A DNA stretch of 64,000 bases from Thamnidium elegans. Taxonomy: Eukaryota > Mucoromycota > Mucoromycetes > Mucorales > Mucoraceae. The stretch is from NCBI GenBank assembly GCA_025201345.1, contig JAIXMG010000009.1, forward strand, positions 310,001 through 374,000, read 5' to 3'. Under the pieces are notes generated by a model. It was not told the DNA's origin, searched no databases, and saw nothing but the letters and a program-made list of their open reading frames with translations. This document shows positions 18,986-56,252 of the stretch, piece by piece. Numbering within the stretch: the first letter of the stretch is position 1; the number at the start of each line of letters is the position of its first letter. Both the position numbers and the translations under genes were made by a program.

Positions 18986-19693
18986 TTTATGTATTGACAT
19001 GTAATGTTTTAGTCATGTTTTAATAACTAGGTATAAACAAATTAGCTATTTTTTCTCTCTTCGTGGAATAAGAAAAATGTTGACAGAATTTGTTATCTGT
19101 ATCGCGATGAACTGGATTTTTTTTTTAAAACTGTATTATTCCTCTTTACTTTATATATAAATATATAAAATAGCGTAGAACTACAAGTACGTAAATATAA
19201 AAACATCTTTATTCAACAATACGTACAAGCGTTTTTTTTTTTTTTTCAGCTGATTAGTAAATGCTTGTAGAATTTACCTCAGATTCTGTTTATCGTGTTT
19301 ATTATAGATGTAAATGGTGCTTACAGATGCATATCGGGTATAACTTTAGTGTGTGGGTACAGGGATTAAAAATCAAGTGTCTTTGGAGTAACACGTATTT
19401 CTTAATTAGGTGTTTTAAAAAATGCATAATTTTTTTTAATTCCTATTTAGAACGGACGGAGTGTGTTGTAATTAATTATTGTTACGCTCGTTTAAGAAGG
19501 ATACAGCATTTGCAGTCGTACTAAAAATGACTTTTGAATTATAAAATGCTTTGTGTATAACATCAGGAATGTGGTTACTTTTAGAAAAAGGCTCTTCTAT
19601 TTTAACATTACGTTAAACTATTTTTGTTGTCTAATTAAAAGAATCAAAACAACATAATGAATTTAAGTGAATATCATATAAACAACAACTATA

Positions 19694-19755
19694 GTAGACG
19701 CTCTATTTAAGGGTAGCCAAAATATGAAATAAATCCACCCTTAAACCAAACTTAC
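19694..19755. repeat. Partial copy of MITE family 2
   Basis: GTAGACGCTCTATTTAAGGGTAG at 19694 matches the left end of the 5862-6127 element (GTAGCGGCTCTATTTAAGGGTGG). A short interior later, CCACCCTTAAA mirrors it, so this is a deleted, about 60-bp version. Confidence 0.5.
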
Positions 19756-19789
19756 TCTTACATTGAGTACTAGATGAGATGAGATAATT

Positions 19790-20075
19790 ATAAAAATACT
19801 GTATAATACTGCTAAAGCTACTTGTATGAAGCACCGAAATGAAAACCAAGATGTTTTCGAATTTATCACTCGCCTTCCTTCTTTGAAAACATACAGCGGA
19901 AAGACTATTTGAAAGCTGTTTCTATTAGACTAAACAAATATAAAAGAATTTATAGCTACTACAACAAAGATAACTGGTAAGTTTGAATCTAATGTTACGT
20001 TCGAGAGTATACTAATATATTTAAAATTAGGTCTATTAAAGAAGATTTTAAAGCCTACATCAAAAATTAATGAAC
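19790..20075 (+). pseudogene. Coding-like fragment, unknown
   Basis: The plus strand reads CMKHRNENQDVFEFITRL, then after a stop RLNKYKRIYSYYNKDNW. A plausible intron (GTAAGTTTG...AATTAG) follows, then SIKEDFKAYIKN and a stop at about 20069. It may be a remnant of the mobile element that follows, but no known domain is visible. Confidence 0.3.
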
Positions 20076-20408
20076 TGTTTTTGACTCATTTATTTTTGAA
20101 TTTCATGGAGCCATTTCAAATAAAGTTCAGGATAGGCCTAAGTTGAACAACTTTTTCTGTGAAAACTTCTTCCTTTTCTGTTCGTAATACTGATTTAAGA
20201 TAGACTTTTCTTGCAAATCGTTCTATAAGCCAAAATAATCATTTAACGTCTCAGTCAATGTTTTCTTGTAATTTAAGCATTGCTTTGTTTTTGAATTTTT
20301 ATGACCAGCTTGGCTGCATGTAGAACAAATGATAGAAGAAGAGTTATCACTTGTAGAATTTTGTTGATCTAAGCACTTTTTTTTTTTTTTTTTTTTTTGT
20401 CTTTCCAA
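20050..20408 (-). pseudogene. Zinc-knuckle N-terminal fragment, probably from a Fanzor-like element
   Basis: On the minus strand a CxxCxxxGH...C knuckle (ICSTCSQAGHKNSKTKQC) is followed, after a stop and frame shift, by FARKVYLKSVLRTEKEEV and VVQLRPILNF. This layout resembles the N-terminus of Mucorales Fanzor-like proteins. It is head-to-head with the plus-strand relic that begins about 20430. A poly-T run (20380-20398) lies at its upstream edge. The assignment is tentative. Confidence 0.38.
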
Positions 20409-20429
20409 ATCGTTTATACTGGATCAATG

Positions 20430-22917
20430 TTTGCAAATTATTTTTATCTTGAAAAGTTAGAGAATGACAAGTTTGTTCCTCGTATTGATCAAATTTAAAC
20501 TATCAATTCTTTTCGCTTTTCGCTGCTCAAGGGAAAAAAGCTACTAAAGACATTACTGATAGTTTCAAGAAGTTTTGCGAATCTTTACCAGAAAAAGTTA
20601 ATTTAAAATATTATAAAGGACAATTATATTAAACTATTATTTCGACTATGGCTGCACAGTATGAAACAAATAATCGTAATAGTATCGTCAAAAACTACGA
20701 AAAAAGAATTATCCATTATTGTTCTTGCTTTATTTTCAAAAGTTGATCATGAACTTTTTTGCGGAATTAAGTTATCAGTTGCTAACAGAAAAGCCCTTGC
20801 ACAATATATTTATCAAATAAATATAACCTAACTAATTATAAATGGCTCTCCCCCATAGAGAAGAATGCAGCAAATGAAACTATTGTCAAAAAAGCCCTTA
20901 ATTTTTGGCCCAGATATGATGATCCTACTAGCAAACGTCTAACTGAACCAACCCTTTAATGAATCTATTAGAAATATAACTTTCAGAGCACAAATTTTTG
21001 CTAATTCATATATAATTAATAATCAACACAACAGGTCATCACTTTCTGTACTAACTGATTAAAACTTCTGGTATTCCATCTGTCAATTAATAATGGGCCA
21101 CAAGATAACCAACAAGAAGTTTATGACACATGAAATAATTTTAGCTTTTGAAAAGTTCAAACAAAAACACCAATCAATTGTATATAGCCTTAAATAGCTT
21201 CCAATTAAAGGCTACAGTGATTCTATTTTTGCTGCTTGTGTCACTATCGCCACTACATACTTAAATAACATTGTTGAAACATTTAAAGGCAGAGCGTTAT
21301 ATTTTTTATATATTAAATTAAAAAATATATATAAGATAGTAGTTTTTTACTTCAAAAAATAAAAAATTAAAAACTTTATATATTATACTAGGATAAACAT
21401 AGAAGTATTTTATATAATGTAGCTGAAAATTTCTGTTATGAACTTCTCTTGGGAAATAAACATTCTAATTGGTCTAATCAACTGGATGTGGTTGGTATAA
21501 CGCGTACTAATCAAGTAATTCAATTAATACAAGAACCCAAAGAACAGTTATCAGTCTTACCAATCTCTGGTAATACATATGAAGAAAACGTTACCCAATT
21601 TTTCGCTACATTTGATTCCAGCAAGTTCGGATTTAAAAGGTAGATAAGTAATTGTTGATTATACACGCATATACGCTAAGATATATTTATATTTACATCA
21701 GTATTGAGGACCTTCTGTCTCCCAAGAGTAAAATTAAGCTCAATGTACTTTAATGACGAACGGATTTGGTACCTGTTTTTATTTTGCTAGAAGTAAGCAC
21801 AACTCTGGTACTGATCATAACGAATTTCTTTTAGATGATTTTATAACGCAGAAAATTGAAGATCATTTTTCACCTTGAGAGTTAGATCCTGGCAGAAAAT
21901 ATGTTTTTACACCTACAATAGCCCACTCCTCCGATCAGTTAGAAGTAAGACGCTGTAGTCCTAAAGAAAGAAGATGCTACGCTGGTACTACCAAAAGATC
22001 TGCATTCACCGAAAAGCTAAAAGTTCAATTTAATATAAAATATATCAAAACAAATATTACTTTCTCAAAGACAGTACGCTCTGAAAAAATGAAACGTAGA
22101 GTGAAATATATCTTGAAGCATTTGCCTACTCTTTTCTCTTTTTACAATTAAAAATCTGCTCCGTTCCGATTCCACAACTATCAAGGAAAACAGAGATCGA
22201 ATGCTGGGATGGCCAACATATTGATAAACGGAGGAAAGAAGTATAATTGAAAGAAAAGAAAGAAAACGAAAGTTAATAGAAAGAAAAAAAGTAAAAAGAA
22301 TGATTGCAACAAAAAAAAATAGATAGTAGATATGTAGTATTAAATATTTAACTAGTTCAAAATATTAACAACAGAAAAAAAATAAATAGGAATCTAGTAA
22401 AGCAAAAAAAAAATTTCAAGAATCTGATCACATCCCTTTAATTTCTTTTGGTGATGGTATGAAGAATAAAGATACTGTTCGTATTAAATGCCATACTTCC
22501 GGTTGTACAGCAGTGCTGTACAAAGAGCTAAGGCAACGATTAAAAAGATTTAGATATGTTTTGGTGGATATAAACGAGTTTAGAACCTCAAAGATATGTG
22601 TTATTTAAATATTTTTTATAGACTTTTAATTCTATTTTTTTTTTTTAAATGTAATCAGGTCTGCAGTAGCTGTAAAAAAAAAAAAAATAAAAAAAAAAAA
22701 AAAAAAAGAGTTGTACTCAATAAAGCTTTCAGATGAAAAGTTTTTCCATGGTATTTTAATATGCAAAAACTGTAAAATACTTTGTAATAGAGATACCAGT
22801 GCCAGTAAAAACATGCTTGATATATTTTTTTTTCTATCTGGAAAGAAGAAGGAAGACTCTTGGCCTTTCAAAGAGAAATCTCCGCGACAAACGCAGTTTC
22901 CTCTTCATGAGGATTAA
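20430..22917 (+). pseudogene. Nearly full-length decayed Fanzor/TnpB-like nuclease (copy 2)
   Basis: Reading through stops and introns, family blocks appear in order on the plus strand. They are AAQYETNNRNSIVKNYEKR (about 20655), LSVANRKALAQYIYQI (about 20775), and TNGFGTCFYFARSK (from 21756). Next comes LDPGRKYVFT (21882-21911), the RuvC-I strand with the catalytic Asp at 21885. Then FRFHNYQGKQRS and INGGKKYN (about 22155-22245), SFGDGMKNKDTVRIK (about 22445), and VDINEFRTSKIC (RuvC-II side, about 22562-22597). An intron follows, then VCSSCK and ICKNCK (zinc ribbon) and CNRDTSASKNM (RuvC-III, about 22785). At least one TGA (21876-21878), a TAA near 22150 and several upstream stops disable it. 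TnpB/Fanzor proteins cut DNA guided by an RNA encoded at the element's end. No guide RNA can be proven by eye. Confidence 0.7.
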
Positions 22918-23639
22918 GATATTTACAATGTATGATAGTTCAAACAAAAAAAAATTGCTGATTTTTTCTACTGTAGTGTATATATCACAAAAAATAACTA
23001 TAATAAATGTGTTTAAAGTAAGCACCAGCCTATAGTTTGCCAGCTACGTAGTTATTTAAAGATGCAAAGCGTAAATTTCGTTTTAAAGTGTCTCCTAATA
23101 TTTTAACTTGCATAGTTTTAGAATTTAATACTAAAATATATTACGAGCTCGAGAAGCTAGTGGCACTAGTGATGATGTTTATTGTAAACATTTGAATAGC
23201 TATGTCTGTAATTTTTAGTCTTTGACAAAACGAATAAAAAGACTTTTTGCGTAGAAGAGTTCAGCCACAACTGTACCACAGTCACTTATTAATGATTGTG
23301 GTATATAATGGTCTTGGCTTCACCCCCCTAAAAAGAGGTGTGATAGCAAATAGTTTATATACTCTTCCGCTTTTTTTTTTTTTAGAAAAAAAAGAGTTGT
23401 TTTATTCCTTTATTTATTGGGGTGCGTAGAAATATAAATTCCATAATTAGTCACAAGGTAAGATATAAACCCCGTACAACAACTGTATTACCCGCGCGCA
23501 TTGAGTCTCAACCAAGACAAGGAATATTTGTATATTTTTTTCTATATACACATATAGTAATTTCTTTCTTTTTTTTCTCTTTTTCTTTTTTCATATACAC
23601 CCATATATATATATATATATATATAAAGAAAGAAAGAAA
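22918..23639. other. Element flank and promoter region of the phosphatase gene
   Basis: It holds no protein gene. A 36-bp motif at 23011-23046 is shared with 12451-12486. Beyond about 23500 the sequence becomes pyrimidine-rich (TTTCTTTCTTTTTTTTCTC), with a (TA)n tract just before the ATG at 23640, which looks like a fungal promoter/5' leader. Confidence 0.5.
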
Positions 23640-25514
23640 ATGATACCAGAAGGTCAAGAGAATAACAATAGTGTAAGCATCATTGATAAACTAGCAGCAG
23701 CTTTTCGTTCACAAAGTAATATAAACCCAAGTGTACGTCCCAATAATAATAATAGTAGACAACCTAGTTGTTCAACACCATCCCTACGTAAACGATCTTC
23801 TGGTAGTCTTAGTTTTTATAGACCTTTACCAGAAACAAAACGAGATGTCAGCATAGAACCATCTTGTAAGTTAGATGACCAACCAACTCAAGTATCTACA
23901 CCAAAAGTAAATACGACTACTACTAAAGCAAAAAAAAGATTATCAGCCACATTCAATCCTATACAAACTAATCCACATGGTAACTCAAATGGTGGTGGCC
24001 CATTATCCAAAACAATTAAAGAAATCAAATCCATTGAATCAAAGGAACTAGGTGACATGTTGGACACACTAGAACCGTTAATGATTGATATGAGACCACT
24101 AGAAAACTTTGAAAAATCACGTATTCGAAATTCAATCAATGTTAATTTACCTAGTTTATTATTAAAAAGATATAGAAGAGGTGTTGTGTCCAATTTTAAT
24201 TTGGCAAGTTTTATTACTACACCTGAAGGCAATGATTATTATAATCGATGGATGTACAAGTTTAATATTCAAGACAACAATATTCAAAATTTACCTGAGG
24301 GCGCAAGATTTATTGTCTATGATGATCATATGATGAATGAAGATACAACTACAGCAGTTTGGACACTAATGGCTGTAATCGCAAAGAACCTGAATTTTCC
24401 TCAAAGTGTATCCTACTTGAAAAATGGTTACTATGGTTTCGAAAATTGGGATCTTCAAGCGAAACATATCATTCAATTTAATCAGTCTCCACCATTGCCT
24501 ATACCTTTATTTAAACCAACGCCTATGGTTTCTAGAAGTGCCTCCACTTTATCTTCTAAAAACATCATTAACGTTCAAAGAAGAGCAAGTTTATTCAGTC
24601 TAGATACGACTCCAAGAGCAAAATCAAATCTAACTCAAAGACCAATCTTTGAGAAATCAAACTTATTTTCCCCTTCCACTCCTTCTACCAGTACTACTTC
24701 TCCTGATATATTCCATACACCCGTAGAGCAATTCCCTGTTGCATTAAACGGCGATGTTACACCAAAAGCAGACGATGAATTTGATTTTGTTATTTCAGAA
24801 ATCATACCAAACTTTTTATATTTGGGTCCTGAAATTTCTACAACGGAACAACTAAACGGTTTAAAGGCAAGATCGATTCAAAGGATTCTAAACATGGCAG
24901 AAGAATGTGATGATGATGTACCAGGCTTAAAATCTGCTTTCAAGTACCACAAAATTGCTGCTAGAGATACAGTTGAAATGCAAAATGTACAAGGCACTCT
25001 GAAAAATGCTGTACAAGTGATAGGTATATATATATTATATATATACAAAATATATAAATAGTTATGCAAGGAGTAAGTTAGACTTATAAGAGAAACTTAC
25101 TTTATATTTTTAGATGACTCAAAGAAACACCATGAACCTATTTATGTACATTGTAAAGCAGGTAAATCAAGATCTGCAGCTGCTATTTTAGCTTACTTGG
25201 TATTATCTGAACATTGGACCCTGAAAAGGGCTTACCGACATATTGTAAAAGCAAGACCCAATATTTCTCCTAATATTGGTTTCGTTGCTGAATTAATGAA
25301 ATTGGAAGAAGGTGTGCATGGTCAAGTCAGTAATTTTGCTGGTACCGATTGGCATTTAATTGATTCTAATAATCCACCAAGTCCTGATACTCTATTAGAA
25401 ATGGGAAGGTTAGAAAAGGCTTGGAAAAGGGGTAGATCTCAAAGCGGAAGTCGACATAACTCATTAAATGGAAGTAGAGGAAGTATTGTATTTACTGCAA
25501 AAGAAGATTATTAG
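23640..25514 (+). CDS. Dual-specificity (MAP-kinase-type) phosphatase with rhodanese-like domain
   Basis: Two exons, 23640-25023 and 25114-25514, give 594 residues. The N-terminus is low-complexity, Ser/Asn-rich. A rhodanese/CDC25-like module (about residues 140-280: PLMIDMRPLENFEKS, then INVNLPSLLLKR) is the usual docking domain of MAP kinase phosphatases. A Ser/Thr/Pro linker leads to the phosphatase domain (ISEIIPNFLYLGPE, then RILNMAEE). The signature HCKAGKSRSAAA lies in exon 2, with catalytic Cys and Arg, and is followed by PNISPNIGF. The upstream general-acid Asp is probably in the AARDT segment. Family members dephosphorylate Thr and Tyr in MAP kinases. The Ser/Arg-rich C-terminus (SQSGSRHNSLNGSRGS) is a likely phosphorylation target. 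Confidence 0.9.
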
Positions 25515-55664: not shown

Positions 55665-56252
55665 AGAAATATATATTATATGCGTATGTAATACGGAAAA
55701 AAAAAAAAAAAAATAGAGAGAGAAAGAGAGAAAGAGAGGAGTGCGTATTATTTTATAAAAAAAAAAAAAAAAAACGCCTTTTTGATGTCTCAATAAACAA
55801 GTGTGCAAAAGGGGTAAAAAGCACATGGCTCACTTGATGCTGGTTTATTCAACTGTAATATACTAAATAAACTATATAACCTCCCTTCTTTCTATCTTTA
55901 TATATATTAGCAAACATTCCATTCAATTTATATTTTATTGCAGGATATAATAAAACCTTCGGAAAAAAAGGGACTATTTTTTTGTTGTTGTTGTTATTTT
56001 TTTTTTAAAACGTTTCATAAAATGTTATACGAGAAAATATTTTAGTTTGTTGTCAGTTCATGCTTTTTTAAGAAGGAAAACTATGGTTACACTCATCTCC
56101 ATGGCAACAGGCGTTTTGTGTTCCCCCCCTTTTTTTGTTGTTGTTGCTTGTTGTTATTTAATCTTCCCGAGCTTTCCGCTTCTTTTCTCTTTCTTTTTCT
56201 TTTTTCCTTTCTCTTTTATACACACACACATACATATATTTTTTTTACCGGC
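55665..56252. other. Divergent promoter region with homopolymers
   Basis: It lies between kinesin-4 (-) and the small gene at 56253 (+). It contains A runs at 55698-55713 and 55758-55774, a TTG triplet run at about 55982-55995, and a pyrimidine-rich stretch ending in (CA)5 at about 56215-56232 just before the ATG. Confidence 0.6.

Follow-up and report, generated by a model that had tools for sequence, protein, structure and literature searches.

A decayed Fanzor1 gene in the Mucorales fungus Thamnidium elegans and its relatives in the genome

Fanzor1 of Mucorales has been in print since 2013, and the accessible part of that paper describes it from Mucor circinelloides, Rhizopus and Phycomyces, with capture in DNA transposons including Mariner and with a C-terminal motif, D-X-[TS][TS]XX-[C4]-RD, in which RD stands within 5-50 residues after the zinc finger (PMC3627910). 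Two fingerprints of Fanzor proteins are given in the available sections of another paper, namely the motif DPG in RuvC-I and a catalytic glutamate (Ealt) placed six residues ahead of the zinc finger (PMC10711439). SpuFz1, the Fanzor1 of Spizellomyces punctatus, is encoded by a single open reading frame and, according to the excerpts at hand, has a proven guide RNA and proven cleavage (PMC10432273, PMC11423790); the available portion of the former paper places its guide RNA at the right end and also reports 'ghost' loci that have no nuclease (PMC10432273). The available part of the latter also presents PpFz1 of Parasitella parasitica, a mycoparasitic fungus, as a Fanzor1 with solved structure (PMC11423790).

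The window, that is, the whole stretch of 64,000 nucleotides that was analysed (G000:C64:310001-374000), comes from the genome of Thamnidium elegans (34.1 Mb, 64 contigs). Thamnidium is a member of Mucorales, the order to which Parasitella parasitica also belongs. The window carries a decayed Fanzor1 gene with its main part at 20967-22910 on the forward strand. In our judgement it is almost certainly a dead gene, one belonging to a Fanzor1 clade of Mucorales that has an N-terminal CCHC zinc knuckle and, in the T. elegans genome, an intron in the zinc ribbon; the gene decayed without visible selection and underwent an inversion. It has the fungal order and the C-terminal motif in common with the Fanzor1 published in 2013 and differs in being a pseudogene; the main text of that paper, as far as accessible, does not use the term 'zinc knuckle', and no ribbon intron was found described there (PMC3627910). 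RuvC-I, the shifted glutamate and RuvC-III of SpuFz1 (PDB 8gkh and others) align with relatives of the window copy, though the latter, unlike SpuFz1 with its demonstrated guide RNA and activity, is known from sequence alone. Closest to it are two hypothetical proteins, P0025 of R. microsporus and P0026 of R. azygosporus, with 43-52% identity over the longer pieces; both are gene models. P0025 has the CCHC knuckle, a lysine in place of the shifted glutamate and no RuvC-III, whereas P0026 retains the glutamate and NRD. PpFz1 was not returned by sequence searches with the relatives, in a PDB copy that may be without it.

The 742-residue protein of a relative on contig C2 (L055), whose gene model was built from splice sites (one acceptor ending in AAG, the others in the usual AG after T or A), aligns to 21747-22824 of the window with E 9e-41, as against E 0.5 for its best match outside the element within 11 kb. 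The best score was 107 bits in a 5-kb region versus a maximum of 27.3 over 200 dinucleotide shuffles. When the window pieces were read through, each stop being written as X, a search of 5.8 billion proteins gave 23 matches: 22 with E < 1e-33 and a last one, a PF07282 'transposase', with E 0.49. All 19 strong matches with an organism name belong to Mucorales genera (Rhizopus, Mucor, Mycotypha and Benjaminiella). P0025 was the best match (46% identity, E 2.6e-116), and one of the 22, P0027, carries the UniRef label PNPLA. A profile of 21 relatives retrieved SpuFz1 from the PDB with E 1.1e-16, the runner-up having E 0.73, and a single relative matched SpuFz1 with E 1e-6; the link of the window copy to a biochemically proven Fanzor1 runs through these relatives only.

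The published fingerprints can be read in the window copy itself. The DPG motif occurs as ELDPGRK at 21879. Ealt is present as NEFRTSK, intron and VCSSC, giving E, six residues and C, a spacing that depends on the intron reading. The 2013 motif is found as TSKV-CSSC...CKNC...NRD, with the linker between the CxxC pairs lengthened by an A-tract that contains a frame break. In an alignment of nine rows, all have the RuvC-I aspartate, with the motif reading DPN in P0006 and DLG in P0012. Eight rows keep the shifted glutamate; the ninth, P0025, has K at this place and breaks off shortly behind it. Where bacterial TnpB has D-hydrophobic-G in RuvC-I and its glutamate about 50 residues ahead of the ribbon, the window copy has DPG and Ealt. 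An earlier note on this DNA had recognized a TnpB/Fanzor-like nuclease from blocks in order on one strand, and both the blocks and the identity hold: ELDPGRKYVFT from 21879, VDINEFRTSKIC near 22562 and LICKNCKILCNRDTSASKNM near 22785 lie on the forward strand in this order, and the fingerprints, the homology and the SpuFz1 profile match support Fanzor as the identity. It speaks against this identity that the ribbon piece of the window alone, split by an intron and a frame break, reached only 15 bits (E 0.028) against PF07282 (Cas12f1-like TNB), below the cut-off of 26.3; a PF07282 score is no part of the published Fanzor definition. Among the relatives, P0005, P0006, P0026 and P0028 score above the cut-off and P0025 has no match. 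Searches of other Pfam families with the window pieces and relatives stayed below the curated cut-offs throughout.

D...E/D layouts are common among RNase H-fold transposases, and the blocks might on that ground come from another transposase of this fold that merely resembles Fanzor. We give this next to no probability, because DPG, the shifted glutamate, the C4 ribbon and RD occur together and in order, because PF07282 is precomputed in 11 of the 22 strong matches (12 of 23 overall) and other Pfam families in none, and because the profile of the relatives retrieves SpuFz1 from the PDB.

The Fanzor1 gene can be followed through the window by comparison with its relatives. The first part of exon 2 lies inverted at 20140-20399 on the reverse strand and matches residues 66-122 and 127-153 of P0025 (E 2.5e-17). 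It contains the CCHC zinc knuckle (20330-20232, reverse strand), preceded by a basic tract, then RKVYLKSVLR..FTEKVVQL; a second match of the knuckle is to the L055 family (E 5.7e-4). The rest of exon 2, from IRNITFRAQIFANSY to ETFKGRALYF, runs forward at 20967-21305 with two in-frame stops, its approximate 3' boundary being placed by comparison with the L055 gene model, and residues 157-277 of P0025 match 20967-21332 on the same strand with 50% identity (E 6.9e-38). The remains of exon 3, from DKHRSILYNVAENFCYELL to EENVTQFFATFDSSKFGFKR, form an open frame at 21392-21640 (forward), the first part aligned to P0025 and P0026 and the 3' end placed by a by-eye match to exon 3 of L055. The remains of exon 4 (21744-22319, forward) carry RuvC-I with the DPG motif in the frame from 21879 and three in-frame stops, and match residues 441-628 of P0025 with 52% identity (E 8.4e-52). 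Exon 5 (22390-22589, forward), which aligns to relatives, extends from FGDGMKNKDTV to VDINEFRTSK and holds the shifted catalytic glutamate. After the ribbon intron (22590-22656, forward), exon 6 (22657-22910, forward) comprises CSSC, the expanded A-tract, CKNC, RuvC-III NRD, the C-terminal FQREISATNAVSSS and the stop. The reading frame of the family ends at 22908-22910, as judged by eye with the paralogue at C11:655k (L010), and not at 22917. The 3' flank at 22911-22980 (forward) is common to the paralogues, reaching about 22932 with the one at C64:1.11M (L011) and about 22980 with L010. The ends of the element and a target-site duplication were not found for the window copy. Just downstream, at 23640-25060, the window contains the start of a gene that, judged by eye from its frame, is dual-specificity-phosphatase-like.

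The earlier note had taken 20430-22917 as a nearly full-length element. The extent is roughly right, but the boundaries are not: the first 520 bases belong to a second family, here called B, and the N-terminal part of the Fanzor1 gene is inverted. The B fragment at 20429-20951 (forward) is N-terminal; it has 68% DNA identity to a locus at C6:219k (L013), and pieces of it have 79% identity, over about 100 bases, to one at C48:20.4k (L018). One could still regard 20430-22917 as one single element with an unusual N-terminus, as both fragments have the same reading direction and adjoin at 20951/20967. This is very unlikely, since the DNA matches of both L013 and L018 end at the edge of the B piece, L013 has no match to the proteins of the relatives, and in the Rhizopus relative the knuckle part, inverted here at 20399-20140, stands directly before the IRNIT block. 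A continuous element over this span was thus rejected in favour of a Fanzor1 gene with an inverted N-terminal part beside a piece of family B. In L013 the B piece adjoins the reverse complement of window 20124-20095, a match of 30 bases only. In P0025, residues 153 and 157 come together once the segment is turned round. A single inversion with ends at about 20140 and about 20967 makes both the P0025 order and the L013 order contiguous. Such an inversion would have flipped the N-terminal part and brought in the fragment of another dead element. It does not put in order the other B fragment at 19802-20066 (forward), which has 71-85% DNA identity to L015 and L014 and corresponds to the stretch after the DPG motif in L015.

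A further fragment of family B lies at 20071-20134, and the B fragments stand out of their usual order beside the Fanzor1 copy. The ribbon region of L014 resembles that of L003 (E 1.6e-5), which carries PF07282 at 42 bits, and L014 itself scores below the cut-off for this family (E 0.0056). L003 had no significant match in the PDB, the best being TnpB at E 0.036, and the B pieces of the window matched none of the proteins compared. Family B, which is decayed and separate from the main element, appears to be Fanzor-like, on weaker evidence than that for the main element.

The earlier note was also right that the copy is dead, although one of its grounds, a frame break, proved at the zinc ribbon to be an intron. 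The recent family related to the window copy has an intron between EFRTS and VCPNC in 12 of 12 aligned copies, and its GT donor is kept in 11 of them and lost in L062. At the same place the donor is GT in the paralogue L010, AT in the window copy and TT in the paralogue L011. Because the recent family has an intron at the same site and L010 keeps the GT donor, 22590-22656 is read as an ancestral intron, and decay as the cause of the gap was rejected. A second intron precedes exon 5 in the recent family, and in the window it is seen by eye at about 22325-22389.

The true lesions of the window copy are five in-frame stops, about three frame breaks, the lost splice donor and the inversion. All five stops lie inside blocks that align to relatives, and the frame breaks fall before 21744 (by eye), within the A-tract (22672-22708) and from 22824 to 22833. 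This tract, within the zinc ribbon, is 23-24 bases longer than in both paralogues. With gaps excluded, and with a separate tally for the A-tract and for the opening 15 bases of exon 6, the window copy and L010 are identical at 149 of 170 sites in exon 5, 57 of 67 in the intron and 178 of 199 in exon 6 after the A-tract (88, 85 and 89%); the corresponding numbers for L011 are 150/165, 60/67 and 180/197 (91, 90 and 91%). Such near-equal decay of exons and intron would be as expected without selection, the intron contributing few sites, only 67. After insertion, the copy would have decayed by stops, frame breaks, loss of the splice donor and growth of the A-tract. Might the locus nevertheless be a working gene, whose introns remove the stops so that a protein, or a regulator, is made? 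Its largest interruption is indeed an intron, and D, E and D are still in place, as is the C4 ribbon. But the five stops lie in blocks aligning to relatives, position 22590 no longer has a splice donor, the N-terminal part is turned round and the exons have diverged about as much as the intron, so that we consider a working gene extremely unlikely and a dead Fanzor1 gene the proper reading.

The genome contains many related sequences, for which all match and cluster counts given here are lower bounds. PF07282 was found at 21 places, 19 of them above the cut-off, and none of these places is the window copy. Searches of the genome with blocks of the window gave 29 matches for RuvC-I and 40 for exon 5, each number including the window itself. 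When matches within 3 kb were merged, Pfam accounted for 21 clusters and the window blocks for 47, without overlap, which makes 68. The recent family comprises at least 13 copies, of which 12 are mutually 97.6-99.3% identical. An intact relative elsewhere in the genome, as the earlier note expected, is nearly realized by the C2 copy: by a rough count it is the only one of 13 without a stop or frame change across exons 2-6 (742 codons), and its predicted exon 1 contains a stop. Exon 1 was read in four copies, and those of C19, C3 and C63 are open there but broken later. Hence no fully intact copy was found among the 13 copies of the recent family checked over exons 2-6.

In both contigs that were read further upstream, C2 and C19, a DDE transposase precedes the Fanzor gene, both being on one strand. 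The two elements have about 5.7 kb in common, in two pieces owing to an insertion in C19. In C2 perfect inverted repeats of 24 bases stand on either side of the transposase, and a third, imperfect repeat (16 of 18 bases) closes the element behind the Fanzor gene; in C19 the left repeat lacks its outermost part. The composite element of C2 (L070/L068/L055) occupies G000:C2:34347-42500, with the right end of the recent family at C2:34782-35134. Two transposase pieces had no match in Pfam at E 0.1, and PF13358 is present in 28 of 120 transposase relatives listed (of 170). PF13358 is DDE_3, which is kin to Tc1/mariner. Fanzor2, by comparison, sits in IS607-type elements with TnpA, and the transposase beside the recent family is of the DDE type instead. 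In the window itself, neither the transposase nor the terminal repeats of the relatives had a meaningful match: the sole transposase match was of 14 residues (E 0.5), and the composite DNA gave one match, of 24 bases at 56182.

The right end of the composite was found in 18 rows, 13 of them the family copies and five at four further places. Two of these places, L072 (G000:C1:2157600-2159100) and L073 (G000:C1:2107900-2109450), have the same deletion, which starts within exon 2, reaches into the 3' region and has taken away the RuvC core. They are 98.6% identical over 1.4 kb, and beyond the element end, in the 3' flanks, their sequences differ. Since they share the deletion yet differ in the 3' flank, copies lacking the nuclease core have probably moved. 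At a third place, L075 (G000:C56:985400-986400), the transposase end runs straight into the last 70 bases of the composite, with no Fanzor gene between them, and the two right ends there agree at 81% over 47 bases; L074 retains only the last part of the composite. In layout only, L072, L073 and L075 are like the 'ghost' loci described with SpuFz1 in the available part of that paper (PMC10432273).

On these observations, we tentatively suggest, while leaning somewhat against it ourselves, that a DDE_3-type transposon, by means of a right end that had been duplicated and had diverged (TIR-transposase-TIR-Fanzor-TIR'), captured the Mucorales clade of Fanzor1 that has the CCHC knuckle, that Fanzor and right end spread to at least 13 places, and that derivatives lacking the core still reached different sites. 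If this is true, the nuclease would be a passenger or act in trans, and would not be required for moving its own copy.

By homology to other Fanzor1 proteins, for which this has been demonstrated, a living protein of this family would bind a guide RNA from the right end of the element and cut matching DNA with its D-E-D RuvC site. The 3' flank at 22911-22980 is, by its position, a candidate place for the guide RNA. For the guide RNA that the earlier note expected near the 3' end of an intact relative, no signal was found: in the one relative folded, L055, the right end was not more stable than shuffled sequences (z 0.12; 53 of 100 shuffles at least as good), and a search of Rfam over 19500-24000 of the window returned nothing at the gathering threshold.

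In the open-licence literature, as far as its texts were accessible, no description was found of the N-terminal knuckle, the ribbon intron or the composite carrier, except for the capture by Mariner (PMC3627910), and no paper was found there that links Fanzor with Mucoromycota or with a zinc knuckle. Fanzor as a kind is already known, and the window copy is a real but ordinary fossil, with an anatomy now better defined than in the earlier note. Alone, it is one further fossil of a known family of eukaryotic RNA-guided nucleases. The genome of T. elegans, on the other hand, with about 68 Fanzor-like clusters, one recently spread family and nuclease-free derivatives, is a natural setting for asking of what use Fanzor is to the transposon.
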